Of a stretch of DNA of 42,283 nucleotides, positions 1,263-27,662 are shown one piece after another (position 1 is the stretch's first letter; the number at the start of each line of letters is the position of its first letter). The stretch covers positions 1 to 42,283 of the forward strand of contig JAGXGK010000017.1 in assembly GCA_024636785.1 (NCBI GenBank), read 5' to 3'. The notes beneath the pieces were generated by a model that worked only from the letters and a program-made list of their open reading frames with translations, searched no databases and had not been told where the DNA came from. The stretch is from Gammaproteobacteria bacterium (GTDB taxonomy: Bacteria; Pseudomonadota; Gammaproteobacteria; SZUA-229). Made by a program: the position numbers and the translations under genes.

Positions 1263-1532
1263 ATGAGTAATCTTACCGATCTTGAAAGTGAATTAGGTGA
1301 GCTGTTAATTACAAATCTTAATCTTGAGGATATTAAGCTTGAGGATATTGATTCAGAAGTAGCGCTATTCAATGAGGGTCTGGGCCTGGACTCAATCGAC
1401 GCCCTTGAGCTTGGCATGCTTTTGTCAACAAAATACGGAATCAAATTGCAATCTGATGATCCTGATTTTGCACGCATATTTTCATCTTTGCGTACTCTGG
1501 CAGTGTATGTTGAGTCAAATCGGACTTCTTAA
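1263..1532 (+). CDS. Acyl carrier protein of the aryl-polyene-type cluster
   Basis: An 89-residue carrier protein that would hold the growing polyene as a phosphopantetheine thioester. The attachment serine is S44 in GLGLDSIDALEL, the expected carrier motif at the start of helix II. I chose the ATG at 1263 (MSNLTDLESELG) over the in-frame ATG at 1227 because a TATAAT overlaps the latter and a GGAG lies upstream of 1263, though its 13-base spacing is long. It is the first gene of a tightly packed plus-strand operon and overlaps the next gene by 26 bases. Described APE clusters usually carry two carrier proteins; only this one is visible here. It differs clearly from the housekeeping AcpP at 23176-23412. 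Confidence 0.85.
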   Translation: MSNLTDLESELGELLITNLNLEDIKLEDIDSEVALFNEGLGLDSIDALELGMLLSTKYGIKLQSDDPDFARIFSSLRTLAVYVESNRTS

Positions 1533-2136
1533 ATCTATCCTGCAGCGACTTGAGCAACCAGGTCTGCTGATCTATCCTGTTGTTGCGCATGCAGGGATTT
1601 TATTGGATCAAATACTCATCCCGGTAATTTACCTGTTAACTTTTATCTATATTATTAGTATAAATAAATTCTCACGGTACCGGTTAGTCGTTGCGGGACT
1701 GACGGCGCTACTGTGCATAATAATTTATATTACTGCGAAACTGGATTTACAGAATATAATCATATATCTGCCCCCTATTTTAATCCCCAGCTGGCTCGCA
1801 ATTGTCTTTCTCGGCAGCTTAAGATCAGATTATGCCTTGATTTCAAAAATTGCAGAACGCATGGAAGGACAAGCCCTGGATAGGCGGCACCTGCTCTATA
1901 CCAGAATCCTGACAGCTCTATGGGGAGGAATATTTTTATTAATGATTTGTGAAGCGGTCATATTAGCGATATATGCGCCATTTGAAGTATGGTCATGGTG
2001 GGTGCACATAGGCAACTATATTATCATTGCTGTTTTGTTTCTAATCGAAATGACTGTTCGACACAGATTTACTGGAAAAAAACCACAGTTTTTTCAAATG
2101 CTTCAAGTTCTGCTGCAACAAAATCGGCATGACTAA
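1507..2136 (+). CDS. COG4648-like inner membrane protein of APE clusters
   Basis: About 209 residues with five or six hydrophobic helices (for example around LLIYPVVAHAGILLDQILIP, VVAGLTALLCIIIYI, IIIYLPPILIPSWLAIVFLG, ILTALWGGIFLLMICEAVIL and HIGNYIIIAVLFLIEM). Proteins of this type recur in aryl-polyene clusters directly after the carrier protein and before the ligase, and their role is not established. The start ATG at 1507 is inside the carrier-protein gene; a much longer in-frame extension is possible but would overlap it further and adds no membrane segment. The stop overlaps the next start as TAATG, indicating translational coupling. The family call rests on context and topology rather than a motif. 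Confidence 0.7.
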   Translation: MLSQIGLLKSILQRLEQPGLLIYPVVAHAGILLDQILIPVIYLLTFIYIISINKFSRYRLVVAGLTALLCIIIYITAKLDLQNIIIYLPPILIPSWLAIVFLGSLRSDYALISKIAERMEGQALDRRHLLYTRILTALWGGIFLLMICEAVILAIYAPFEVWSWWVHIGNYIIIAVLFLIEMTVRHRFTGKKPQFFQMLQVLLQQNRHD

Positions 2137-3473
2137 TGAATAGCGCACAGATATCCCAAAAATCGATAGCCTGGTACATAGACCATGTTATTGATCAGAG
2201 CTTATTTGAATCTCATGTAGCACAAACTCGTATTAATCTACTGCAAGTCCATGCAACTAAACGTCCAACAAGAGTGCTCAACTTGTGTGAAAACCGTTAC
2301 CACTTTCTGGTCGCTTTTACCGCAAGCATGTTGGAAGGTCGAATGACTATGCTGCCTGCAAATCGCAGTGAAGGCGAAATCACGCGACTAACAAACAACC
2401 AAAATGTACAGCTGATTAATGATTCTTTGATAAAAGGTATCTGCCAGACAGTTGAGGTAAGTTCATCCGAATTAGTTAAATGGAACATCGGGTTAGTGCC
2501 GACAGATATGATAGTGGCCGAGCTGTATACATCTGGTAGCACCGGATTACCCATTGCTCACCAGAAGACCTGGGGGCAGTTAGTCAGCGGAGTCCAACAA
2601 GTCTATAAAAGGTTTCATTTTGAGCGGATAGCACGCCTGAGTATTGTCGCCACTGTTCCACCGCAACATATGTTTGGCTTTGAGATGAGCATCATCTTGC
2701 CATTAGTTTATTATGGTATATGCATTCATCACGATCAGCCATTTTATCCTTTAGATATACAGCGCGCTATAAACGAAGTTTCTGCACCTTGCATTCTGGT
2801 CACTACACCTACACATTTGAAAGCGTGTATTACACAGGAGTATAACTGGAAAAACATAGAGCAGATAATATCAGCCACTTCTCCATTATCAGAAGAATTG
2901 GCTAGTCAGGTCGAAAGTATAATGCGCACTAAAGCTAAAGAAATATACGGTTGTAGTGAAGTTGGTGCCATAGCAACGCGACGTGTGACGAAAAAAACGA
3001 CATGGTCGCTTCTTCACGATTTTTCTCTTAGTGTAATAAACGAAGATGCATGGCTAAACACTGTCGCGACAAATAAAAAAACATCCTTACCAGATAAGCT
3101 GGAAATATTATCCGATGGGACCTTCAGGTTAATTGGCAGAGCAACAGACATGGTTAAAATTGGCGGTAAACGCGGATCTCTAGCAGAATTAACGGCACAT
3201 ATAAAGTCTCTTGAAGGAGTTGAAGACGCAGTCGTGTTTAAATTGGATTATCAGGCAAACCAACGTGAGCGGTTGGCAGCCCTGGTCATTGCACCTGGAT
3301 TTAGCTCAAGGCAGGTACGTGATGCACTTACTAAAATTATTGATTCAGTCTTTTTGCCTCGACCTCTATATACCGTAGAGGATCTTCCATATACCTCTTC
3401 AGGTAAGTTACCAATCGCAGACTTATTAACTTATCTAAAAGATCATAAAAAGGAAGCAGAGACATCATGTTGA
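2136..3473 (+). CDS. AMP-dependent acyl/aryl ligase (starter activation)
   Basis: A 445-residue ANL-superfamily enzyme, expected to activate an aryl acid with ATP and load it on the carrier protein. Visible signatures: the P-loop YTSGSTG at 131-137, the A5-like EIYGCSEVG, the A8 hinge GRATDMVKIGGKRG, and the C-terminal catalytic lysine K424 in YTSSGKLP. It is shorter than typical acyl-CoA ligases (500 or more residues), the gap lying in the N-terminal lobe, as is usual for APE ligases. It starts within the preceding stop codon and overlaps the next gene by 7 bases. The substrate (4-hydroxybenzoate, a cinnamate or other) cannot be read from the sequence. Confidence 0.85.
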   Translation: MNSAQISQKSIAWYIDHVIDQSLFESHVAQTRINLLQVHATKRPTRVLNLCENRYHFLVAFTASMLEGRMTMLPANRSEGEITRLTNNQNVQLINDSLIKGICQTVEVSSSELVKWNIGLVPTDMIVAELYTSGSTGLPIAHQKTWGQLVSGVQQVYKRFHFERIARLSIVATVPPQHMFGFEMSIILPLVYYGICIHHDQPFYPLDIQRAINEVSAPCILVTTPTHLKACITQEYNWKNIEQIISATSPLSEELASQVESIMRTKAKEIYGCSEVGAIATRRVTKKTTWSLLHDFSLSVINEDAWLNTVATNKKTSLPDKLEILSDGTFRLIGRATDMVKIGGKRGSLAELTAHIKSLEGVEDAVVFKLDYQANQRERLAALVIAPGFSSRQVRDALTKIIDSVFLPRPLYTVEDLPYTSSGKLPIADLLTYLKDHKKEAETSC

Positions 3474-3769
3474 ATGCATCATTTATGATCTCTGCAACAC
3501 ATCCTAGTCTGGATGGACACTTCCCTGATTATCCGATCACTCCTGGCGTTATCACGCTAGATCATGTTGTGCGTGGTCTTGTTAGTCAACTACCAGGATT
3601 AATCCTTCACGGATTCCCAATAGTTAAGTTCATACAACCTATTTACCCGAATACTCAAATAGAAATCATATATAAACAAAAAAATGAAGGGCTCTATCAT
3701 TTTAGTTGTGTATCCGAAGGTGTGATTTTTGTCACGGGACAGATACAGCTAGTTAGTGAAGGCACCTAA
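3467..3769 (+). CDS. Hotdog-fold hydroxyacyl-ACP dehydratase (FabZ-like, ApeI type)
   Basis: A 100-residue single hotdog domain. The FabZ-type active-site stretch is GHFPDYPITPGVITLDHV (residues 17-34), with catalytic His18; the position of the usual Glu is taken by Asp32. It would dehydrate 3-hydroxyacyl-carrier intermediates to make the conjugated double bonds. It is shorter than FabZ (about 150 residues), consistent with the small dehydratases of APE systems that work with a second hotdog partner; such a partner is encoded at 9542-9985. A GGAAG lies upstream of the ATG. Confidence 0.8.
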   Translation: MLNASFMISATHPSLDGHFPDYPITPGVITLDHVVRGLVSQLPGLILHGFPIVKFIQPIYPNTQIEIIYKQKNEGLYHFSCVSEGVIFVTGQIQLVSEGT

Positions 3770-3773
3770 AGCT

Positions 3774-4667
3774 ATGAGCGAATGGACTGATCACGCGGAG
3801 CGTAGCAACACTTTTACGCTTAAATTAATTTGCTATATAGCATTGAATGTATCTCGTGGTATTGCACGCTTATTGCTATGGCCAATTACATTGTACTTTT
3901 TTGTAAGCTCAGCAGCGTCGCGGTTTGCCTCTCATCAATACTTACAGCGAGTTCCAGGATACAACGGAAGTGCATGGGAAGTGATTTTCCATATTCACCA
4001 TTTTTCTGCTGTCATACTGGATAGAGTGTACTTCTTAACTGACCAGTTCGATCGTTTCAAAATTGATGTCTATGATGAAGAACAACTAGATAAGGTAATA
4101 TCGCAAGAAAAAGGTGCCATATTACTTGGCTCTCATGTGGGTAGCTTCGAAGTTCTGAGGTGTCTGGCATTACGACGACATAAGATACCGCTTAAAATTA
4201 TGATGTATAAAAATCATAATGCTATGATCACTCGGATACTGGACGAACTGAATCCGGAAATAGCCAAATCAGTAATTAATCTGGCTAACCCAACAGCACT
4301 TTTTGAAATGAAAGAAACGCTGGAAAAAGGTAACCTAATAGGAATGTTAGGAGACCGCGTACTAAAAGATGAAAAGAAAATATCATGTTTTTTTCTAGGT
4401 GAAGAAGTTAATTTTCCAGCAGGTCCTTTTAAGCTGGCTGAGATGCTAAGTGTGCCAGTAATCGGATTTTTTGGAATTTATACCGGTGGCAACCGCTATG
4501 AAATTCATCATAAGTTGCTCTATGATGGTCAAAAAATACCTCGCGATCAACGTGAAAAGACCATTAATGAACTAATGCAGAAATATGTAAAAAGTATTGA
4601 AGATAACGTTAAACAACACCCTTATAACTGGTTTAATTTTTATGACTATTGGGAAGACAAATTGTGA
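3774..4667 (+). CDS. LpxL/HtrB-like lysophospholipid acyltransferase
   Basis: About 297 residues with one hydrophobic N-terminal segment (LLLWPITLYFFVSSA) and the acyltransferase HX4E motif at H121-E126 (GSHVGSFEVL). Downstream blocks LGDRVLKDEKK and FPAGPFKLAEM follow the lipid A late-acyltransferase pattern. It would attach an acyl, perhaps polyene, chain to a lipid anchor at the inner membrane. A GTG at 3756 is in frame and upstream, but GAAGG at 3758-3762 fits the ATG at 3774 better. In many APE clusters this domain is fused to a family-2 glycosyltransferase; here it stands alone, and a GT2 lies separately at 10115-10921. Confidence 0.78.
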   Translation: MSEWTDHAERSNTFTLKLICYIALNVSRGIARLLLWPITLYFFVSSAASRFASHQYLQRVPGYNGSAWEVIFHIHHFSAVILDRVYFLTDQFDRFKIDVYDEEQLDKVISQEKGAILLGSHVGSFEVLRCLALRRHKIPLKIMMYKNHNAMITRILDELNPEIAKSVINLANPTALFEMKETLEKGNLIGMLGDRVLKDEKKISCFFLGEEVNFPAGPFKLAEMLSVPVIGFFGIYTGGNRYEIHHKLLYDGQKIPRDQREKTINELMQKYVKSIEDNVKQHPYNWFNFYDYWEDKL

Positions 4668-5218
4668 AGTACTTTATCTATATTATTTTATTACTGCAAG
4701 CTTCAGTAACAAGTGCTGGAACTTTAAGCGAAAGACTGGAAGATTTTTCAGAACTAAATGAATCGAGTGGATATTTTGTAGAAACATGGTCAGCAGATTA
4801 TCTGGATGTTTCTCTGGTGTCGAAAGGAAAATTACTTTATAAAAGACCCGGAAAACTCAGTAAAATTATTACATACCCTGATCGCATCGAGCAACATATC
4901 GATGGTGAACAGTTATCCATTACACATAATAATAAAACACGCAATATACAGCTCTCCCAACAACCCGGTCTAGCAGTAGGTATTTATGCATTACAGGCAA
5001 TCCTTGATGGAGATGAAAAAAAACTTCGTGAGCTATTTAAACCAGACTATAGCGAACTGGCCACAGGTTGGGAGCTATCATTAGTAATAAGAGACGAGGA
5101 AATGGCTGATAGTATTGAGCTGATTATTATACGGGGAAAAGCTGATCGTATTCTGAAAATCAGCACAGAATTTTATAATGGTGATCGCCTGTTAACTGAA
5201 CTCACATATGAGAATTAA
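4664..5218 (+). CDS. LolA-like periplasmic carrier protein
   Basis: About 184 residues. A signal peptide (KYFIYIILLLQASVTSAG) is followed by a LolA-like half barrel: residues around SGYFVETWSADY, KGKLLYKRPGKLSKIITYPD and a late ILKISTEFYNGDRLLTELTY strand. Such proteins in APE operons probably carry the lipid-linked product across the periplasm, working with the MMPL exporter that follows. I use the GTG at 4664 because GGGAAG lies about 8 bases upstream and it begins the signal peptide directly; a TTG at 4649 is also in frame. It overlaps the next gene by 11 bases. Confidence 0.72.
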   Translation: MKYFIYIILLLQASVTSAGTLSERLEDFSELNESSGYFVETWSADYLDVSLVSKGKLLYKRPGKLSKIITYPDRIEQHIDGEQLSITHNNKTRNIQLSQQPGLAVGIYALQAILDGDEKKLRELFKPDYSELATGWELSLVIRDEEMADSIELIIIRGKADRILKISTEFYNGDRLLTELTYEN

Positions 5219-7538
5219 GACCATATCAGGAGTGCGATTTCTGATCTGGCTAATTGTTATGAGTCTTATGATCACATATCTTTCATTACACCTGCGCATC
5301 ACTGATGATATAGGGCAGTTTATGCCTGATGCTAATCACGATTCTCAATTACAGGCTTTGATGAGTGAAGTTCAAAATGGACCAGTTGCGACTACGTTAA
5401 TGCTAAGGCTTAGCGGTGCTAAAGATAGTGAGCTAGCGCGTCTTAGCACGCAATTGAGGCAGTCATTGCTATTACAGAGCGATGTCTTTCAAAACGTGCG
5501 AAATAGTAATACTTCATTTGATCTTAATGCACTCAATCCTCTTTTCCCATACCGATACCTGCTTATTGACAGCCTGAACTGGAATCAGCAGGCACTAAAA
5601 GAGATGCTAGAACAGAGGCTAGTCGACTTACGCTCAGGTGCAGGCGCAATAACAGGCAATTTCATTACGAATGATCCGCAACTCTCATTCATGAAATACC
5701 TCCATAAATTATTTAATAGCGAGGGACCCATAGAAAAACATGGAGTATGGTTTGACAAGGAAAAGCAAAGCGTTTTATTACTAGTTAGTGTAAGCAGTGA
5801 TTCGTTAGACCTTGATGTTATGCAGAGAGCCGAAGACGATATCCGTCAGACATTTTCCTCGTTAGCACAAACATCCTCAATACAGCTTGAAATTTCAGGG
5901 CCAGGTGTGATGGCTGTTCATGTACGTTCAACTATAGAACAAGTAATAAATAATTTATCAATGTTTATGATTATATTGCTAATCATTGTTTTTGCCATCG
6001 CATATCGAAGCATGTATGCGTTGCTTCTAGCTGGCATTCCATTATTAAGTGCAGTGACTGTTTCGCTGGTTGCTACACAGGCTATATTCCATGAAGTACA
6101 CGGTATCGTGCTTGCGTTTGGCGTTACCTTACTGGGCGTTTGTCTGGACTACCCTCTTCATTTATTCAGTCATCTGCGCTCAAATGAGTCACCATCTTTG
6201 AGTCTAAACAGAATATGGCCTACATTATTATTGAGTGGAGCCTCCACAATCATTGCCTATATGGCATTGTTTGGTAGCGGTTTTAATGGACTGAGCCAAT
6301 TGGCTGTCTTCGCAGCTTGCGGACTTACAACGGCACTACTAGTGACACGCTATATACTTCCTTATTGGGTATCACCTGCCCGTGTAAATCCAAGGTTGTT
6401 TGCACTTAATATAGGATTGAGTCCAGGTAAAAAAATATTTATAGTGATACTGTTACTCTGTATGCCTGTTTTGATAATGCTACAAAGCGATAACTTTTGG
6501 GAAACCTCAATCGATGCAATTAGTCCGATTCCAGCATCTGCTCGTGACAACGACCGTAAATTACGACATGACCTGAATGCACCTGAAGTTTCCCATGTGT
6601 TTGTACAGTCAGGCGAGAGTATAGAGAAAACATTACAGAGTAGTGAGTACATCAGCCGGCAATTGCGGGAATTACAGGATCTGGGAATTATTAGTAGCGT
6701 CTGGTCTCCGTCGCAGATATTGCCATCGGTACAACAGCAACGGCACCGGCAACAACTATTGCCAACTAAACAAGAATTGTCGAGTAATCTAGAAGGCGCT
6801 CTAAGTGGATTACCGTATCGACAGACAGCTTTTGAGCCATGGCTTGAATCCGTTGCTACAAGCCGAACTTTAAGTCCACTAGAATATGATGATATCGCAT
6901 CTACACCATTAGCCAATCTGCTAAAACAAGGTCTTTTTCAGTATGGTAATATGTGGATAAGTACTATTCGTGTCAGTGATATCCGTTCAATAGCAGAATT
7001 CAATGACTGGCTTGATCTGAATCCAAAGATTAAAGAGAGTCATATAGAGATAAAACAAGCAACTGAACACTTGCTTACGGAATACCGTATATCTACATTC
7101 GAGCGCTTCCTTGGTATATTTCTGCTACTGTCAATCATCATAGTCTTTTGGTCACGCAGCATTACACGAGCTCTCTGGATTATGCTACCTGTAACTATAG
7201 GACTCCTAAGTGGGCTTGCCATGCCAATTCTACTGGGTGCTGCAATTAATGTTTTCCACCTATTAGCACTATTGCTAGTATTAGGTATGGGTTTAGATTA
7301 CAGCTTGTTTTTTAACAGGACGACGGACAATATCCTTGAACGGAAACAACATCTTCACGCCATTAGTATCAGTGCGCTAACAACATCGGCAGCGTTTTCG
7401 GTACTAGCGTTTTCACCTGTTCCAGTAATGGCAGCAATGGGTCAAACAGTTGCTTCTGGCGTTCTAATGTGCTTCATATCTGCATTATTGTTGTCATCTT
7501 CTACTATCACCAATGATTATCCAGATTATATAAAATGA
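5208..7538 (+). CDS. MMPL/RND-superfamily exporter
   Basis: A 776-residue membrane protein with the two-fold MMPL layout: an N-terminal helix (FLIWLIVMSLMITYLSLHL), a large periplasmic domain, a block of five or six helices (from about LSMFMIILLIIVFAIAYRS), a second periplasmic domain, and a second helix block near the C-terminus (from about FERFLGIFLLLSIIIVF). The second block includes GMGLDYSLFFNR and the first VTLLGVCLDYPLHL; the Asp-Tyr pair in each is the typical proton-relay position of the family. It would export the finished polyene lipid from the inner membrane to the LolA-like carrier. It overlaps genes on both sides, so it is part of one operon. Confidence 0.82.
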   Translation: MRIKTISGVRFLIWLIVMSLMITYLSLHLRITDDIGQFMPDANHDSQLQALMSEVQNGPVATTLMLRLSGAKDSELARLSTQLRQSLLLQSDVFQNVRNSNTSFDLNALNPLFPYRYLLIDSLNWNQQALKEMLEQRLVDLRSGAGAITGNFITNDPQLSFMKYLHKLFNSEGPIEKHGVWFDKEKQSVLLLVSVSSDSLDLDVMQRAEDDIRQTFSSLAQTSSIQLEISGPGVMAVHVRSTIEQVINNLSMFMIILLIIVFAIAYRSMYALLLAGIPLLSAVTVSLVATQAIFHEVHGIVLAFGVTLLGVCLDYPLHLFSHLRSNESPSLSLNRIWPTLLLSGASTIIAYMALFGSGFNGLSQLAVFAACGLTTALLVTRYILPYWVSPARVNPRLFALNIGLSPGKKIFIVILLLCMPVLIMLQSDNFWETSIDAISPIPASARDNDRKLRHDLNAPEVSHVFVQSGESIEKTLQSSEYISRQLRELQDLGIISSVWSPSQILPSVQQQRHRQQLLPTKQELSSNLEGALSGLPYRQTAFEPWLESVATSRTLSPLEYDDIASTPLANLLKQGLFQYGNMWISTIRVSDIRSIAEFNDWLDLNPKIKESHIEIKQATEHLLTEYRISTFERFLGIFLLLSIIIVFWSRSITRALWIMLPVTIGLLSGLAMPILLGAAINVFHLLALLLVLGMGLDYSLFFNRTTDNILERKQHLHAISISALTTSAAFSVLAFSPVPVMAAMGQTVASGVLMCFISALLLSSSTITNDYPDYIK

Positions 7539-8722
7539 AAGCTATGACGCCAATGGCAATAACTGCAAAGACGATTGTTAATTCATGCGGTTTAGGTGAA
7601 GCCTCAACAATCGATGCACTCAGGAATAATTGCAGTGGTTTAAAGCAACGAGCTTATGAAGGCTTAAACTTTGATACATGGCTCGGGATAGTCGATGAAA
7701 TTGAATCAATCGAGATTGAGCCAAAGTTAGAGCGATACAGTTGTCGTAACAATCTACTAGCACAGCTTGCACTTCAAACAGACAATTTTCACGTATCTGT
7801 GGAAAGTGCGAAATTAAGATACGGTGCTGAGCGAGTTGGAGTCTTCGTAGGTACAAGCACATCAGGTATTGCAGAAACTGAAAGCGCCTACAGTCATATG
7901 CATCACTATGATACATTTCCTGATAATTTTGATCTATTGCATACGCATAATATGTCTTCATTACAGAGTTATGTGCAGTATTTTTTAGGTCTATATGGTC
8001 CAGGACATACAATCTCGACTGCATGCTCATCAAGTGCTAAGGTTTTTGCTGCTGCATATCGACATATAGTATCAGGACAATGCGACGCGGCAATAGTGGG
8101 TGGCGTAGACTCTTTATGTATGTCTACATTATATGGATTTAACTCTCTACAGCTAGTATCAAAAGAAATTTGCCGACCATTTGATGCTAACCGTAATGGC
8201 ATTAATATAGGTGAAGCTGCCGGCTTCATTTTACTGGAACCTGCGACAGTAGATCATAGTAAAGTTAAATTTAAGGGCTATGGTGAATCCAGTGATGCAT
8301 ATCATATGTCTACACCGCATCCAGAGGGCGATGGTGCTGTTATAGCAATGAATGATGCAATGACTCGAGCTTCATTAGCTGCAACAGATATTGAATATGT
8401 TAATCTGCATGGCACGGCTACACGCAGTAATGATCAGGCGGAAGCTCTCAGTCTGTTCCGTGTCTTTGGTGATAAAGTCGTCTGTAGTTCAACGAAAGGC
8501 TTCACCGGCCATACGCTTGGTGCAGCCGGGATTACTGAATCCATTATATCAATACTGGCTCTCGAACAAAACATACTTCCAGGAAATTTGAACATGCAGG
8601 CATGGGATGAAACCCTTCGTATTAAACCCTTGGAAGTAACGACAAATCGCTCTGTTGAAAATGTCATGACTAATAATTTCGGTTTTGGTGGCAACAACTG
8701 TAGTTTAATCTTTGGCTGGTGA
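7535..8722 (+). CDS. Beta-ketoacyl synthase (APE ketosynthase)
   Basis: A 395-residue elongating ketosynthase with a complete Cys-His-His triad: C164 in STACSSSA, H292 in LHGTATRSND, and H326 in KGFTGHTLGAAG. The C-terminal NNFGFGGNN loop is also present. It would extend the aryl starter by malonyl units on the carrier protein. The ATG overlaps the stop of the exporter gene (ATGA). An internal ATG at codon 4 or 7 could be the real start. It is followed after 3 bases by a ketosynthase-like partner without a nucleophile, so the two probably form a KS-chain-length-factor heterodimer as described for aryl polyene synthases. Confidence 0.88.
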   Translation: MKAMTPMAITAKTIVNSCGLGEASTIDALRNNCSGLKQRAYEGLNFDTWLGIVDEIESIEIEPKLERYSCRNNLLAQLALQTDNFHVSVESAKLRYGAERVGVFVGTSTSGIAETESAYSHMHHYDTFPDNFDLLHTHNMSSLQSYVQYFLGLYGPGHTISTACSSSAKVFAAAYRHIVSGQCDAAIVGGVDSLCMSTLYGFNSLQLVSKEICRPFDANRNGINIGEAAGFILLEPATVDHSKVKFKGYGESSDAYHMSTPHPEGDGAVIAMNDAMTRASLAATDIEYVNLHGTATRSNDQAEALSLFRVFGDKVVCSSTKGFTGHTLGAAGITESIISILALEQNILPGNLNMQAWDETLRIKPLEVTTNRSVENVMTNNFGFGGNNCSLIFGW

Positions 8723-8725
8723 AGC

Positions 8726-9520
8726 ATGACAGTTTATATTAATGATATTTCAGTAATTGCACCCGGTTTGATAGATAGAACGATCACACGCTCAATTTTA
8801 TTAGGCGATAAAAACTGGGTTTATCAGGAAATCCCAAAGCTCATTCCAAACATGTTACCAGCAAACGAGCGACGACGGACAACACCAATGATTAGACTTG
8901 CACTGGCATGTATACAAGGTCTATCAAATGATTGCAATGATCTACAAAACACGTCCACTGTGTTCGCGTCATCGGATGGCGATTTTGAAATTTCCGATAA
9001 GATTTGTACAGCACTGTCGAATGACGAGAAGATGATCTCACCTACTTTATTTCATAATTCAGTGCATAATTCAGCTGCGGGCTATTGGTCAATAGCGTCA
9101 TTGATTAAAGGTGCGTCCACCAGCATATCATCAGGTGATGCCACCTTTATGAGCGGGCTACAAGAGGCCGTTACACAGGCTGAAGTCGACGGAGGTACTG
9201 TGTTATTTGTAGCATATGATTACCCTGCACCGTCGTCATCACCACTCGATAAATATTCCCTCATCAAGTATCCACTAGCCATTGCAATCAGGATTGGAAA
9301 AACGGCTGAAAACAAAACACTTGGAACATTGAAACTAGAAGGTCCTGAGAATGATTTCAAAGAAAGTGTTTGCAGAAACCTCTCTCTTGAACCTCTACGT
9401 ACTGCATCACCTGTCGGTCATGGCATGCCATTGATCGAGGCATTAGTAAGAAGAGCGCGAATGCAAGTTATTATTCCGTATCTAAGGGATGAAAAATTTC
9501 GTATATCTATCTCTCATTGA
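8726..9520 (+). CDS. Ketosynthase-like chain-length-factor subunit
   Basis: A 264-residue protein with the N-terminal ketosynthase-like domain (TVFASSDGDFEISDKIC, then LFHNSVHNSAAGYWSI where a ketosynthase would have its nucleophile). No cysteine is at that place, so the protein is not a condensing enzyme by itself. It starts 3 bases after the active ketosynthase. In known APE systems such a subunit pairs with the ketosynthase and sets chain length. The protein is shorter than actinomycete chain-length factors (about 400 residues) and lacks the second ketosynthase half. Confidence 0.78.
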   Translation: MTVYINDISVIAPGLIDRTITRSILLGDKNWVYQEIPKLIPNMLPANERRRTTPMIRLALACIQGLSNDCNDLQNTSTVFASSDGDFEISDKICTALSNDEKMISPTLFHNSVHNSAAGYWSIASLIKGASTSISSGDATFMSGLQEAVTQAEVDGGTVLFVAYDYPAPSSSPLDKYSLIKYPLAIAIRIGKTAENKTLGTLKLEGPENDFKESVCRNLSLEPLRTASPVGHGMPLIEALVRRARMQVIIPYLRDEKFRISISH

Positions 9521-9541
9521 TACGACAAGGTAATTATTAAC

Positions 9542-9985
9542 ATGTTAGACCATGATGAAATCTGTAAGCTCATTCCACATGATGGGAAAATGTGTTTGCT
9601 GGATAAAGTGAAGAGCTGGGACATAAATAATATTATTTGTACAACTAACACACATAGAAACAAATATAATCCTCTTCGTTCTAATGATGAATTACCAATG
9701 CTATCACTACTGGAATATGGGGCTCAGGCAATGGCAGTTCATGGCTGTCTATTGGCAGACATGGACGGTTTCATTATGAAGAAAGGTTATTTGGCATCTA
9801 TACGAGATGTTAACTTTGCAGATGGTTTGCTCTCTGAGGTCGAAGCTGAACTGGTGATAAAAATGGAACGTATCTATGCTGAGTCAGGAAATATGATCTA
9901 TACCATGTCGATTTATGCAAGCAGCATAATACTAGCTAGTGGCAGGATTTCAGTAGCAGCAAATTTTATTGATAGAAAAAATTAG
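9542..9985 (+). CDS. Second hotdog dehydratase (ApeP-like)
   Basis: A 147-residue hotdog domain. IPHDGKMCLLD near the N-terminus carries His13, and MLSLLEYGAQAMAVHG carries Glu58 at the position of the acid residue on the central helix. This fits the larger dehydratase that pairs with the FabZ-like protein (3467-3769) in APE clusters. An AGGT lies upstream of the ATG. The last two codons precede, by 1 base, a reading frame that begins like a ketoreductase. Confidence 0.78.
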   Translation: MLDHDEICKLIPHDGKMCLLDKVKSWDINNIICTTNTHRNKYNPLRSNDELPMLSLLEYGAQAMAVHGCLLADMDGFIMKKGYLASIRDVNFADGLLSEVEAELVIKMERIYAESGNMIYTMSIYASSIILASGRISVAANFIDRKN

Positions 9986-9986
9986 T

Positions 9987-10079
9987 ATGAAGCGCGCATT
10001 AGTAACTGGCGAACGTATCGCAAGTCGTACTGACAAGAATTTAGGATGCTTACACTTTAGGAAAATTCTGCTAATGTGA
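9987..10079 (+). pseudogene. Truncated ketoreductase remnant (MKRALVTG start)
   Basis: The reading frame begins MKRALVTG, the exact opening of short-chain dehydrogenase/reductase FabG-like enzymes of APE clusters (the first strand and start of the NAD(P)H-binding turn), placed directly after the second dehydratase where such a gene is expected. The sequence then leaves the family (ERIASRTDKNLGC...) and stops at 10077-10079 after 30 residues. The Ser-Tyr-Lys triad and everything else are absent. I read it as the surviving 5' scrap of a deleted ketoreductase, with a breakpoint near 10010. A chance match over eight residues is possible but unlikely given the location. Confidence 0.6.
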
Positions 10080-11058: not shown

Positions 11059-11186
11059 TGAAGATGGTGCCCGAAGGGTGAATCACAGGGATGTAATCCA
11101 TAATCGAACCGGCTGCCGGTTCGAATGTTTCAGGACTCAAAATCTTAATCAGGAACGATGGTGTTAGCATAATGAAGATGGTGCCC
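11059..11186. repeat. Duplicated tRNA-Leu 3' end with palindromic T-arm debris
   Basis: The 14 bases TGAAGATGGTGCCC occur at 11059-11072 and again at 11173-11186, where they form the 3' end of the tRNA-Leu gene. Between them, at about 11104-11123, is a near-perfect hairpin (CGAACCGGC, one base, GCCGGTTCG) made of tRNA T-arm-like sequence facing both ways. The first copy does not fold into a full tRNA. This pattern fits a scar from integrase-type recombination at a tRNA 3' end. The 10946-11058 interval holds no gene that I can support. Confidence 0.55.
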
Positions 11187-11265
11187 AGGGCCGGAATCGA
11201 ACCGGCACGCCCGTTAAGGCGAGGGATTTTAAGTCCCTTGCGTCTACCTATTTCGCCACCTGGGC
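11179..11265 (-). tRNA. tRNA-Leu (anticodon UAA)
   Basis: An 87-base gene with encoded CCA. The acceptor arm GCCCAGG pairs with CCTGGGC, the D arm starts TGGCGAAATAGGTAGACGC, the anticodon loop reads CTTAAAA (UAA), there is a long variable arm typical of leucine tRNA, and the T loop is GGTTCGATTCC. Its 3' end is partly repeated about 114 bases away. Confidence 0.95.
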
Positions 11266-17789: not shown

Positions 17790-17963
17790 TGTTGAACCTG
17801 AATCCGTGGTTTAAACGTGGATGCATGGTGCAAGATATTGGTTTCACAGAGGTTTCAAAAAATCTTAGCTTCACCCTTAGGTTAAGCGGGCATTTTTTGA
17901 TCCGCTGTGCAATCAAGAGCTTGTGCCAGGCGCCGCGGTTAAGCCACGGATTCAGGTTGAAGT
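17790..17963 (+). repeat. 164-bp terminal-inverted-repeat element, copy 1 (MITE-like)
   Basis: The core runs from AACCTG at 17795 to CAGGTT at 17958 (164 bp). Its ends are imperfect inverted repeats: AACCTGAATCCGTGGTTTAA on the left and, read on the other strand, AACCTGAATCCGTGGCTTAA on the right. It encodes nothing. A second copy of 163 bp lies at 27465-27637 in opposite orientation with the same interior. The shared sequence extends a few bases outside the core (TGTTG on the left and GAAGT on the right). It fills the whole tmk-holB gap, so it is transcribed with that operon and should form a long RNA hairpin. Confidence 0.85.
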
Positions 17964-21859: not shown

Positions 21860-23104
21860 TTAGTCAGTCAGTTTTCTGAAAACCAGCGTGCCGTTGGTGC
21901 CACCAAAGCCGAATGAGTTGGATAAGGCTACATCAATCTTCATTTCACGGGCGGTGCCCGGAACATAATCAAGATCACAGCCTTCGCCGGGATTGAGCAG
22001 ATTAATGGTGGGCGGGGCGACCTGATCGTGAATGGCCATGACAGAGAAAACCGCTTCAATGCCACCAGCGGCACCCAGCAGGTGACCGGTCATGGATTTG
22101 GTGGAGCTCACTGCGGTCGCTTTCGCGTGTTCGCCCAGCGCCAGTTTAACTGCGTTGGTTTCAGCAACGTCGCCCGCAGGCGTTGAGGTACCGTGGGCGT
22201 TGATATAATCAACTTCAGAGGCATTCAGTCCGGCATCGCGCAGCGCATTGCTCATACATTTGGCCGCACCACTGCCATCAGCAATAGGCATGGTCATGTG
22301 GTAGGCGTCACTGTTGTAGCCGAAACCGGCCACTTCCGCATAAATTTTGGCACCGCGGGCTTTGGCGTGTTCGTACTCTTCCAGCACCAGTACCCCAGCA
22401 CCGTCGCCCAGAACAAAACCGTCACGGTCTTTATCCCAGGGGCGGCTGGCGGTGGCAGGATCATCGTTGCGCGTGGACAGAGCGCGTGCTGCGGCAAAGC
22501 CGCCGATACCCAGAGGCGAGGAGGCTTTTTCAGCGCCGCCGGCAAACATCACGTCGGCATCGCCATAGGCGATGATACGCGCAGCTTCACCGATGCTGTG
22601 GGTGCCGGTTGAACAGGCAGTGACCAGGGCGATATTGGGACCGCGGGTGCCGTGCATGATCGAGAAGTTACCCGAGATCATGTTGATGATGGAGCCGGGT
22701 ACAAAAAAGGGTGAGATCTTACGCGGGCCGGATTCGAGCATCTTACCGTGATTAACTTCAATCATCGGCAGACCACCGATACCGGAACCGATAGCGACAC
22801 CGATTCGATCTGCATTTGCATCGGTGATTTCCAGGCCCGAATCGCGCAGTGCTTCGGCGGCGGCAACCAGACCATAATGGATAAAGACATCCATTTTTTT
22901 CTGATCTTTTGCTGCGATCACATGGCCGGCATCAAAATTCTTAACCGTAGCAGCGAATTTGACAGCATAGTCGCTGGTATCAAACTCATCGATAGCAGTA
23001 ACCCCACTCTTGCCCGCAAGAATATTGTCCCAGCTCTCTTTTAAATCGAGCCCTACGGGAGAAACAATACCCATGCCAGTAATGACAACGCGACGTTTAG
23101 ACAC
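21860..23104 (-). CDS. fabF: 3-oxoacyl-ACP synthase II
   Basis: A 414-residue elongating condensing enzyme of fatty acid synthesis. Counting from the GTG at 23104 (then [11 protein letters not shown]), the triad is C164 (TACSTG), H304 (AHGTST) and H341 (GHLLGAAG), which matches E. coli FabF to within one residue. A TTG at 23131 would add nine residues with no support; an AGG lies 11 bases upstream of the GTG. It follows acpP. Confidence 0.96.
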
Positions 23105-23130
23105 TATTTTCGTACCTGCAATAAATAACA

Positions 23131-23150
23131 ACAGCCACTGATGTGGCTGT
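23131..23150 (-). terminator. Possible weak terminator or processing hairpin between acpP and fabF
   Basis: ACAGCCAC and GTGGCTGT form an 8-bp stem with loop TGAT. Read on the minus strand it is followed by a T-rich but broken run (TGTTATTTATT). It could lower fabF expression relative to acpP, which is needed in much larger amounts. The role is inferred. Confidence 0.4.
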
Positions 23151-23175
23151 CTTGAACTAGAAAAAACGACAGAAA

Positions 23176-23412
23176 TTAATCTGTATGTGCTTTTATGTAG
23201 TCGATCGCCTGTTGAATAGTGGTGATCTTTTCTGCATCTTCATCACTAATTTCGCACTCGAATTCTTCTTCAAGAGCCATTACCAGTTCAACGGTATCCA
23301 GTGAATCGGCACCAAGATCGTCAACAAATGATGCTGCATTTGTGGCTTGTTCTTCTGTAACACCGAGTTGTTCGATAACAATCTTGCGAACGCGTTCTTC
23401 AGCTGAGCTCAT
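23176..23412 (-). CDS. acpP: Acyl carrier protein
   Basis: A 78-residue housekeeping carrier of fatty acid synthesis, same length as E. coli AcpP. The phosphopantetheine serine is S37 in [20 protein letters not shown]. The start is the ATG at 23412, with AGAGGAAA about 9 bases upstream; the upstream in-frame start at 23439 would contain that ribosome site. The 188-base gap to fabG holds a likely separate promoter. Confidence 0.97.
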
Positions 23413-23454
23413 GTAATTTTCCTCTTTAAATATGATCAATCAGAACTGCGCGGT

Positions 23455-23478
23455 ATTCTAGTGAATTCATGCACAGCA
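23455..23478 (-). promoter_or_regulatory. Probable acpP promoter
   Basis: On the minus strand TAGAAT (23455-23460) is a good -10; a weak -35 (TGGATT, at 23473-23478 approximately) is 17 bases upstream. A start near 23447 leaves about 35 bases before the acpP ATG. The remaining 23480-23600 stretch is very AT-rich, which could act as an UP-like element. No gene is seen there. Confidence 0.4.
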
Positions 23479-23600
23479 ATCCAGTTATAATTGCCCTTCT
23501 TCGACAATACATTTATATACATTTTTAAATCAAAAGGTTATAGATTATTTTTAACTTAAAATATAACCTTAAATTAAGCCGTTTTGGCGATATAAATGCC

Positions 23601-24341
23601 TTAAGGCATGTACATGCCGCCATTTACGTGCAGCGTTTCGCCTGTAATATAGCTGGAATCGGGACTGGCTAAAAAGGCCACGGCATTGGCGATATCCGCC
23701 GGCTCGCCCAGACGACTCAGTGGAATCTGCCCGATCAGCCCCTGTTTCTGCTCTTCCGCCAGTTCGCGGGTCATGTCGGTATCGATAAATCCGGGGGCGA
23801 CTGCGTTCACCGTGACGTTGCGTGAGCCGATCTCTCTGGCCAGCGATTTGGTGAAACCGAGCATGCCTGCCTTAGCGGCTGAATAGTTGGTCTGTCCCGG
23901 ATTGCCGGTGGAGCCGACTACGGAAGCGATATTGATGATACGACCTTTTCTGGCCTTCATCATTTTGCGGATCACCGCTTTGCAGAGGCGAAATATCGAG
24001 GTTAAATTGGTATCAATAATATCGTCCCACTGATCATCTTTCATCACCATCAGCAGGTTGTCGCGGGTGATGCCGGCGTTATTCACCAGAATGCTGACGT
24101 CACCGAAATCACTGGTGATCTGCTTGATAACAGCGGCTACCGAGTCGGCATCGGTGACATTGAGACACATTCCTTTACCTTTTTCACCCAGATATTCACT
24201 GATCTTTTCGGCACCGCTTTCGCTGGTCGCCGTACCGATGACAGTTGCGCCGTCGGCTTTCAGGCGCTCGGCAATAGCTTTACCAATACCCCGGCTGGCA
24301 CCGGTCACCAGGGCAATTTCGCCGTCTAATACATTGCTCAT
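23601..24341 (-). CDS. fabG: 3-oxoacyl-ACP reductase
   Basis: A 246-residue short-chain dehydrogenase using NADPH. The cofactor turn LVTGASRGIG is at 11-20, NNAG follows near residue 88, and the catalytic Ser, Tyr and Lys are in IASVVGSTGNPGQTNYSAAK. The end (SSYITGETLHVNGGMYMP) is classic FabG. It reduces 3-ketoacyl-ACP in each fatty acid cycle. Because the polyene cluster in this window lost its own ketoreductase, FabG might also serve it; that is inference. Confidence 0.96.
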   Translation of the reverse strand: MSNVLDGEIALVTGASRGIGKAIAERLKADGATVIGTATSESGAEKISEYLGEKGKGMCLNVTDADSVAAVIKQITSDFGDVSILVNNAGITRDNLLMVMKDDQWDDIIDTNLTSIFRLCKAVIRKMMKARKGRIINIASVVGSTGNPGQTNYSAAKAGMLGFTKSLAREIGSRNVTVNAVAPGFIDTDMTRELAEEQKQGLIGQIPLSRLGEPADIANAVAFLASPDSSYITGETLHVNGGMYMP

Positions 24342-24381
24342 AGAAACTCTCTTTTAAATCGTCGCTGTTATTCTAATTGAA

Positions 24382-25332
24382 TTAATGCTCGCTGGCGTCC
24401 ATGGAATCCAGAAATTTTTGCATGTTAGCAGGTGTATCCAGAGAAAACGCGGGGACCTCTTTAATTATACGTCGGGACAGACCGCTCAGCACCTTACCCG
24501 GCCCGCATTCGACAATGGCATCATCCGCTGCTGAGCCGATGATTTCAGCGCTTTTAGCCCAGAGCACCGGGCTATATAGCTGTCTGGTCAGCGCATCACG
24601 GATCGCGTCCGGATCGTCATGACTTTTGGCATCGACATTATGAATGACCTGGACTTTCGGGGTTTTGATGGTAATGGTTTTCAATACTTCGGCCAGCTGA
24701 TCGGCCGCCGGCTTCATCAGTGAGCTGTGCGAAGGCACGCTGACCGGTAGTTTTAACGCGCGTTTGGCGCCCTCTTCTTTAGCCAGCTCAATGGCCAGGT
24801 CAACCGCGACAGTATTGCCGGCAATAACTACCTGACCGAGCGAATTGAAATTAACCGCTTCCACCACCTGACCGGTTTCAGCTGCGGCTTTTGTACAAAT
24901 TTCAATGACCTGATGGTCACTCAAATTTAAGATAGCCGCCATCGCGCCCTCGCCTTCAGGTACGGCGTTTTGCATGAGACGGCCACGTTCGGCCACCAGC
25001 CGGATGGCATCGGTGAATTCAATGGACTCAGCCGCGACCAGCGCAGCGTATTCACCCAGGCTGTGGCCTGCGTAGACAAAAGGCTTGAGCATGCACTGCT
25101 CGGCCATAACCTGCATTACAGCGATGTCCGCGGCCAGCATGGCAGGCTGGGTGATTTCGGTCTGATTGAGTTTTTCGACCGGGCCGTTGCTGACAATCTC
25201 CCACAGGTCGTAACCCAGAACTTCGGAAGCTTCCTTAAAGGTGTCAATAATTTGTGGCCAGTCTTGAGTGTATTCTGACAGCATGCCCACAGACTGGGAG
25301 CCCTGTCCCGGAAAAACAACAGCAATATTCAT
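24382..25332 (-). CDS. fabD: Malonyl-CoA:ACP transacylase
   Basis: A 316-residue acyltransferase loading malonyl units on ACP. The N-terminal VFPGQGSQSVGM oxyanion-type loop and the nucleophile S91 in GHSLGEYAAL are present, with the paired histidine in VPSHSSLM. Length is near the usual 309. Both the fatty acid and the polyene pathways would need malonyl-ACP. It is preceded by dapB instead of the usual fabH and plsX. Confidence 0.96.
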   Translation of the reverse strand: MNIAVVFPGQGSQSVGMLSEYTQDWPQIIDTFKEASEVLGYDLWEIVSNGPVEKLNQTEITQPAMLAADIAVMQVMAEQCMLKPFVYAGHSLGEYAALVAAESIEFTDAIRLVAERGRLMQNAVPEGEGAMAAILNLSDHQVIEICTKAAAETGQVVEAVNFNSLGQVVIAGNTVAVDLAIELAKEEGAKRALKLPVSVPSHSSLMKPAADQLAEVLKTITIKTPKVQVIHNVDAKSHDDPDAIRDALTRQLYSPVLWAKSAEIIGSAADDAIVECGPGKVLSGLSRRIIKEVPAFSLDTPANMQKFLDSMDASEH

Positions 25333-25391
25333 CTAGGTTTCCTGTGTTGAAATGGTTGTATCGGAGACTTTTTAGCCCGTTTAAGGTGTCA

Positions 25392-25413
25392 CCTGCACGG
25401 CCGGCCGTGCAGG
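25392..25413. other. Perfect 22-bp palindrome between dapB and fabD
   Basis: CCTGCACGGCC is followed directly by its exact inverse GGCCGTGCAGG, with no loop. It lies in the 107-base gap between dapB and fabD. There is no T tract immediately after it on either strand, so a canonical terminator is doubtful. A dimeric regulator site or a transcript cruciform or hairpin are options. Confidence 0.6.
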
Positions 25414-25439
25414 GGTCTCATTATTATTATGTGTGTATT

Positions 25440-26264
<825 letters not shown>

Positions 26265-27464: not shown

Positions 27465-27637
27465 ACTTCAACCTGAATCCGTGGCTTAATCGCGGCGTCT
27501 GGCACAAGCTCCTGGTTCCACAGCGGATCAAAAATGCCCGCTTAACCTATGGGTTAAGCTAAGATTTTTTGAAACCCCTGTGAAACCAATATCTTGCATC
27601 ATGCATCCACGTTTAAACCACGGATCCAGGTTCAACA
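27465..27637 (-). repeat. 163-bp terminal-inverted-repeat element, copy 2 (MITE-like)
   Basis: Core 27470-27632. Read on the minus strand it matches copy 1 (17790-17963) nearly base for base along its whole length, the one length difference being in a T run. The ends are AACCTGAATCCGTGGCTTAA on one side and AACCTGGATCCGTGGTTTAA, read inward, on the other. It is inserted between dnaK and dnaJ. No transposase is encoded. Confidence 0.85.
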
Positions 27638-27662
27638 TAGATAAACAGGCAAAATAATTAGC

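Follow-up and report, generated by a model that had tools for sequence, protein, structure and literature searches.

The question raised by this locus is whether an aryl polyene (APE) operon that has lost its own ketoreductase (KR) can still be in use. Few bacterial biosynthetic clusters are as widespread as those for APEs, whose KR is, to our knowledge, considered a dedicated enzyme that FabG cannot replace. The window, i.e. the whole stretch of DNA analysed, spans positions 1–42,283 of a 131-kb contig from a MAG of 1.94 Mb (72.6% complete). Positions 1263–10079 hold ten intact plus-strand genes and a KR stub, and a minus-strand GT2 gene, lying outside the coordinates considered in an earlier note on this DNA, completes the locus. 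The features are listed below, with dN/dS values relative to a sister species of the same genus, G004 (MAG GH5, JAQICG010000258.1, 88% complete).

1263–1532, plus strand: acyl carrier protein (ACP, PRK09184 family; 116 bits against a cut-off of 70) with a GLDSID phosphopantetheine motif; dN/dS 0.07
1507–2136, plus strand: membrane protein in the MEM/ApeG-like position, for which many clusters have a homologous open reading frame in the corresponding position, and with no match in the profile library search; dN/dS 0.26
2136–3473, plus strand: aryl:ACP ligase (AMP-binding, ApeH-like; PF00501, 3e-16); dN/dS 0.23
3467–3769, plus strand: hotdog dehydratase DH1 (ApeI-like), with weak FabA/ApeI-like matches and 13/13 family-conserved columns kept; dN/dS 0.24
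3774–4667, plus strand: acyltransferase (lipid A acyltransferase-like; PF03279, 5e-17); dN/dS 0.11
4664–5218, plus strand: LolA-like periplasmic carrier (PF19574, 1.6e-8), weakly matching flexirubin LolA2
5208–7538, plus strand: MMPL/RND exporter (PF03176, 1.6e-15), intact in the window
7535–8722, plus strand: ketosynthase (KS, PRK09185 family; 493 bits, curated cut-off 407), with 111/111 family-conserved columns kept and the active-site Cys and two His present in the alignment; dN/dS 0.11
8726–9520, plus strand: half chain-length factor (CLF, Lysobacter ORF16-like; PF13723, 9e-27), with 26/26 conserved columns kept
9542–9985, plus strand: hotdog dehydratase DH2 (ApeP position), assigned by homology and position, with 18/18 conserved columns kept; dN/dS 0.20
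9987–10079, plus strand: APE ketoreductase remnant, a pseudogene, with an identical 3' junction in G004 and an intact KR at this site in the related locus L113
10115–10921, minus strand: GT2 glycosyltransferase of the cluster, likewise inverted at this position in G004 and L113, and with a GT2 gene in most such clusters; dN/dS 0.18
11179–11265, minus strand: tRNA-Leu(taa) (ARAGORN), bordering the low-G+C cluster
23601–24341, minus strand: fabG of the fatty-acid cluster, the top match to the APE KR in this genome (41%) and the leading candidate for a reductase acting in trans

The cluster was compared with 80 loci, returned by a search with a KS alignment and then annotated. Profile searches and the order in these loci showed the genes named in the earlier note to be present, intact and arranged as described, and family scores, gene order and the KS tree agreed on its assignment to the APE class. 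By sequence comparison, the operon is an APE locus of the xanthomonadin type: it encodes a PRK09185-type KS (395 residues) beside a half-size CLF (264 residues), together with a dedicated ACP, an aryl ligase, two dehydratases, an acyltransferase, and LolA-like and MMPL genes. Among the annotated loci, the order ACP-membrane protein-ligase-DH1-acyltransferase-LolA-MMPL-KS-CLF-DH2-KR, often with a GT2 gene, was found in many gamma- and betaproteobacteria, and loci from Nitrospira showed the same core with small changes. In the KS tree the window and G004 grouped together, joined by L113 (a locus of CSMAG_1388) and then L104, with symbionts of Bathymodiolus, and FabF from the same genome fell outside the APE KSs, which argues against the alternative of a lipid-A or fatty-acid variant. 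The nearest named records in the KS search were uncultured gammaproteobacteria, some labelled Piscirickettsiaceae. The gene set had been described as reduced relative to Xanthomonas-type clusters; this could not be upheld, since the same order is widespread and the Lysobacter cluster likewise has one ACP and a KS/half-CLF pair (PMC3691225). A single ACP, a single KS/CLF pair and the lack of an ammonia-lyase are thus normal for the xanthomonadin type and do not represent a reduction. The Escherichia coli type, also used as comparator in the earlier note, has 18 genes (PMC8253772); the window locus, with no second APE ACP and no additional KS (ApeR), belongs to another APE type. What sets the operon apart from its class is the KR, of which a 30-codon stub was the only trace found in the genome.

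The cluster has a G+C content of 36–43%, compared to roughly 45–61% for the rest of the window, and on the right it is bordered by a tRNA-Leu/Cys/Gly array next to pgsA. Borders of this sort at tRNA genes are where islands enter. The cluster contig of G004 also reaches into the 3' end of the same tRNA-Leu. In the window, this 3' end (TGAAGATGGTGCCC) is duplicated about 100 bp from the tRNA, at 11060–11180, possibly as an att-site scar, and no duplicate was found in G004. On the other side, the contig end carries the start of a porin gene (1–151) and an IS3-like transposase remnant (521–607), and in G004 the left flank is different and includes a large glycoside-phosphorylase-like gene. The window also contains a palindromic repeat some 170 bases long (17792–17961 and 27467–27640, with a truncated copy at 1081–1124), which has 29-nt inverted ends and an RNA fold z-score of −8.7 and resembles a MITE or REP-like family. 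It occurs many times in both genomes, and in each of them a fragment lies directly upstream of the cluster.

The KR was found to be cut, as the earlier note had stated. The stub at 9987–10079 consists of eight sense codons (MKRALVTG) and a truncated, out-of-frame tail that ends at 10079. These eight residues are the first eight of the intact KR at the same site in L113, where a complete 245-residue KR is followed by a ydcF-like gene and then an inverted GT2 gene. In G004, where the rest of the operon is split over two contigs and shares about 90–93% DNA identity with the window, the KR stub runs in frame for about 80 codons and contains two stop codons upstream of its truncated end. Both stubs end at an identical deletion junction and the KR is intact in L113, and the sequences thus indicate that the KR loss predates the split of the two species. 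A single deletion in the common ancestor, starting near KR codon 85 and reaching the start of ydcF, would have removed about two thirds of the KR and most of its ydcF-like neighbour, and the window lineage would then have lost a further 165 or so bases. An assembly artefact was ruled out, as the junction is common to two separate, independently assembled MAGs. Recent cross-species transfer of a broken copy was also rejected, the cluster dS of 0.225 being near the genome dS of 0.275, also beside the junction.

As the KR loss is ancestral, all differences between the window and G004 arose without a KR, and they therefore report on the fate of the remaining genes. Across 11 cluster genes dS was 0.225 and dN/dS 0.189, compared to 0.275 and 0.084 for 14 core genes. 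Accessory genes are normally under weaker constraint than core genes, and the proper control is therefore a KR-intact APE cluster. The control pair L109/L110, from sulfur-oxidising Bathymodiolus symbionts, gave a dS of 0.216 and a dN/dS of 0.191, and other pairs ranged from 0.12 to 0.23. Each cluster gene taken singly had dN/dS below 1 (p from 1e-4 to 4e-19). Polarising the changes with L113 yielded small counts and contributed little. About 9.4 kb of coding sequence contained no frame-breaking indel, and against about 24 in-frame stops expected if substitutions were neutral, one was seen, where TTG has become TAG in the MMPL exporter of G004 (L041:1978–1980); this nonsense codon is either a real loss or an assembly error. 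These substitution patterns indicate that the 11 other genes, both dehydratases included, have been under purifying selection since the KR was lost.

That the pathway died with its KR, leaving early pseudogenes that have yet to decay, is therefore unlikely in our judgement. This reading draws on the essential role of the KR in Lysobacter (PMC3691225), the nonsense codon in G004, the higher dN/dS of the cluster (0.19) than of core genes (0.08) and the IS3-like remnant upstream (window ~521–607). Neutral decay would be expected to give dN/dS near 1, frameshifts and stops; the value after KR loss instead equals that of the KR-intact control pair, there are no frameshifts, the only stop is confined to G004, and the similarity of cluster and genome dS leaves no room for recent arrival of a broken copy. 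The suggestion that the cluster is dying is accordingly disfavoured on the evidence of these two incomplete MAGs.

If the operon is still in use, reduction has to be accounted for. With the L113 KR as query, the only matches in either genome were FabG (41%) and remote SDRs, whose sequences suggest FolM-like, YciK-like and generic SDR proteins; no APE-type KR was thus found elsewhere in either incomplete MAG. An intact KR that had moved elsewhere in both genomes, into their unassembled parts, would fit the completeness values of 72.6% and 88%, but none was found in the searched parts, and the chance of both MAGs missing it is about 3% if gaps are independent, making this explanation quite improbable. 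A search of the incomplete window genome for further APE genes, as the earlier note had proposed, also came back empty: AcpP and the cluster ACP were the only carrier proteins, no second APE KS was found (the other ketosynthases were FabF, FabH and a DarB-like gene, of which only FabF belongs to the family of the cluster KS), and a second APE module was sought and not found.

The housekeeping FabG is, as far as sequence can tell, the only plausible substitute reductase, and its sequence bears no sign of adaptation. It is highly conserved between the window and G004 (dN/dS 0.024), and at the PGF motif (a Phe/Leu specificity site) it has retained the Phe typical of FabG, with no APE-like change. 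Its gene lies within window positions 21860–26243, which carry fabF, acpP, fabG and fabD, with dapB directly after them and neither fabH nor plsX intervening; contig C21 holds a fabH-like gene.

The DarB-like gene lies on another contig of the window genome in a second low-G+C stretch (C3:7147–11915; 38–42%), which encodes a ketosynthase of the StlD/DarB family (380 bits against a curated cut-off of 450), a haem-oxygenase-like protein, a DUF6999 protein and a PLD protein. DarB-like genes were found near APE genes in four other loci (L120, L130, L131 and L168), and DarB-like ketosynthases are of a kind using beta-keto thioesters. This gene, on its separate 40% G+C stretch, and the KR-negative searches of both genomes would fit an operon whose KS/CLF product is now an aryl polyketide with some or all of its keto groups unreduced, with acylation, glycosylation and export still taking place. 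We consider this very unlikely, as both dehydratases are complete and constrained and need hydroxyacyl substrates, and the DarB-like gene had no close homologue in the incomplete G004 MAG or in the other congeners searched. For the same reason it was rejected as the missing partner of the cluster, since its absence from the G004 search would leave the shared KR-less state unexplained.

The dehydratases would be idle without ketoreduction, and their retention in complete form suggests that hydroxyacyl substrates are still made. We thus slightly favour a conserved KR-less APE operon that is still running, with ketoreduction borrowed in trans, most likely from the housekeeping FabG. The ligase would load hydroxybenzoate onto the ACP, with 4-hydroxybenzoate available from UbiC, which is present in the window genome (searches of five genomes from this genus did not find the XanB2 starter enzyme). 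The KS and half-CLF would add malonyl units, the beta-keto groups would be reduced in trans, most likely by FabG, and the two hotdog enzymes would dehydrate the products; the acyltransferase, GT2, LolA-like protein and MMPL pump would then serve attachment and export of the polyene. Since selection has kept the other genes after the KR loss, we infer that the polyene is still made and, less confidently, that the reducing enzyme is FabG. Of the three options in the earlier note (a modified product, reliance on other cellular enzymes, or a dying cluster), the second is best supported, with the genes constrained and no other KR found. Published data contradict substitution by FabG: deletion of the KR abolishes the pigment in Lysobacter enzymogenes, giving a white mutant (PMC3691225), and Acinetobacter baumannii FabG cannot replace ApeQ in vitro, with almost no APE formed (PMC8041823). 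The G004 nonsense codon also counts against it, and an intact KR could lie in the unassembled parts of the two MAGs (72.6% and 88% complete). The chances appear evenly balanced that this is an APE line without a KR of its own, having either co-opted FabG or turned to an as yet undescribed aryl polyketide lipid that is unreduced or only partly reduced.

The conflict between a constrained KR-less operon and the published KR and FabG data is the interesting part. Two sister species in which the KR is lost and all else is normally constrained amount to a natural experiment against an irreplaceable KR, and the operon points to where a link between fatty-acid and polyene synthesis may be sought. The use of a control pair also offers a way of telling living from dying biosynthetic clusters in MAGs.

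Compared to known systems, the E. coli CFT073 cluster (apeA-R; PMC8253772) shares the functions of ACP, ApeG, ApeH, ApeI, LolA, RND, KS and DH, and differs in having 18 genes, among them those for two ACPs, three KS-family proteins, a thioesterase, a methyltransferase, lipoproteins and the ApeQ KR. A second xanthomonadin-type operon with no detected KR or DH1 was seen in L167 (Rhodospirillales EAC21), whose genome encodes many SDRs, the closest KR homologue being FabG beside fabD. The xanthomonadin-like cluster of L. enzymogenes OH11 (ORF1–17; PMC3691225) has, like the window, one ACP, a KS with a half-size CLF, two dehydratases, an acyltransferase, a LolA-like protein and a GT2-type gene, and no ammonia-lyase is reported for it. 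It differs in an intact, experimentally essential KR (ORF13), where the window has a remnant, and in a XanB2-type starter enzyme (ORF5), of which no homologue was found in the window genome. In the Bathymodiolus symbionts L109 and L110 the order from ACP to DH2 is identical to that of the window, with KSs about 54% identical, but an intact KR directly follows DH2 and GT2 lies upstream instead of downstream. The nearest KR-intact relative is L113, whose KS part is 82% identical and whose DH2-KR-GT2(−) layout is that of the window; with both the KR and the ydcF-like gene present, it represents the state before the deletion.
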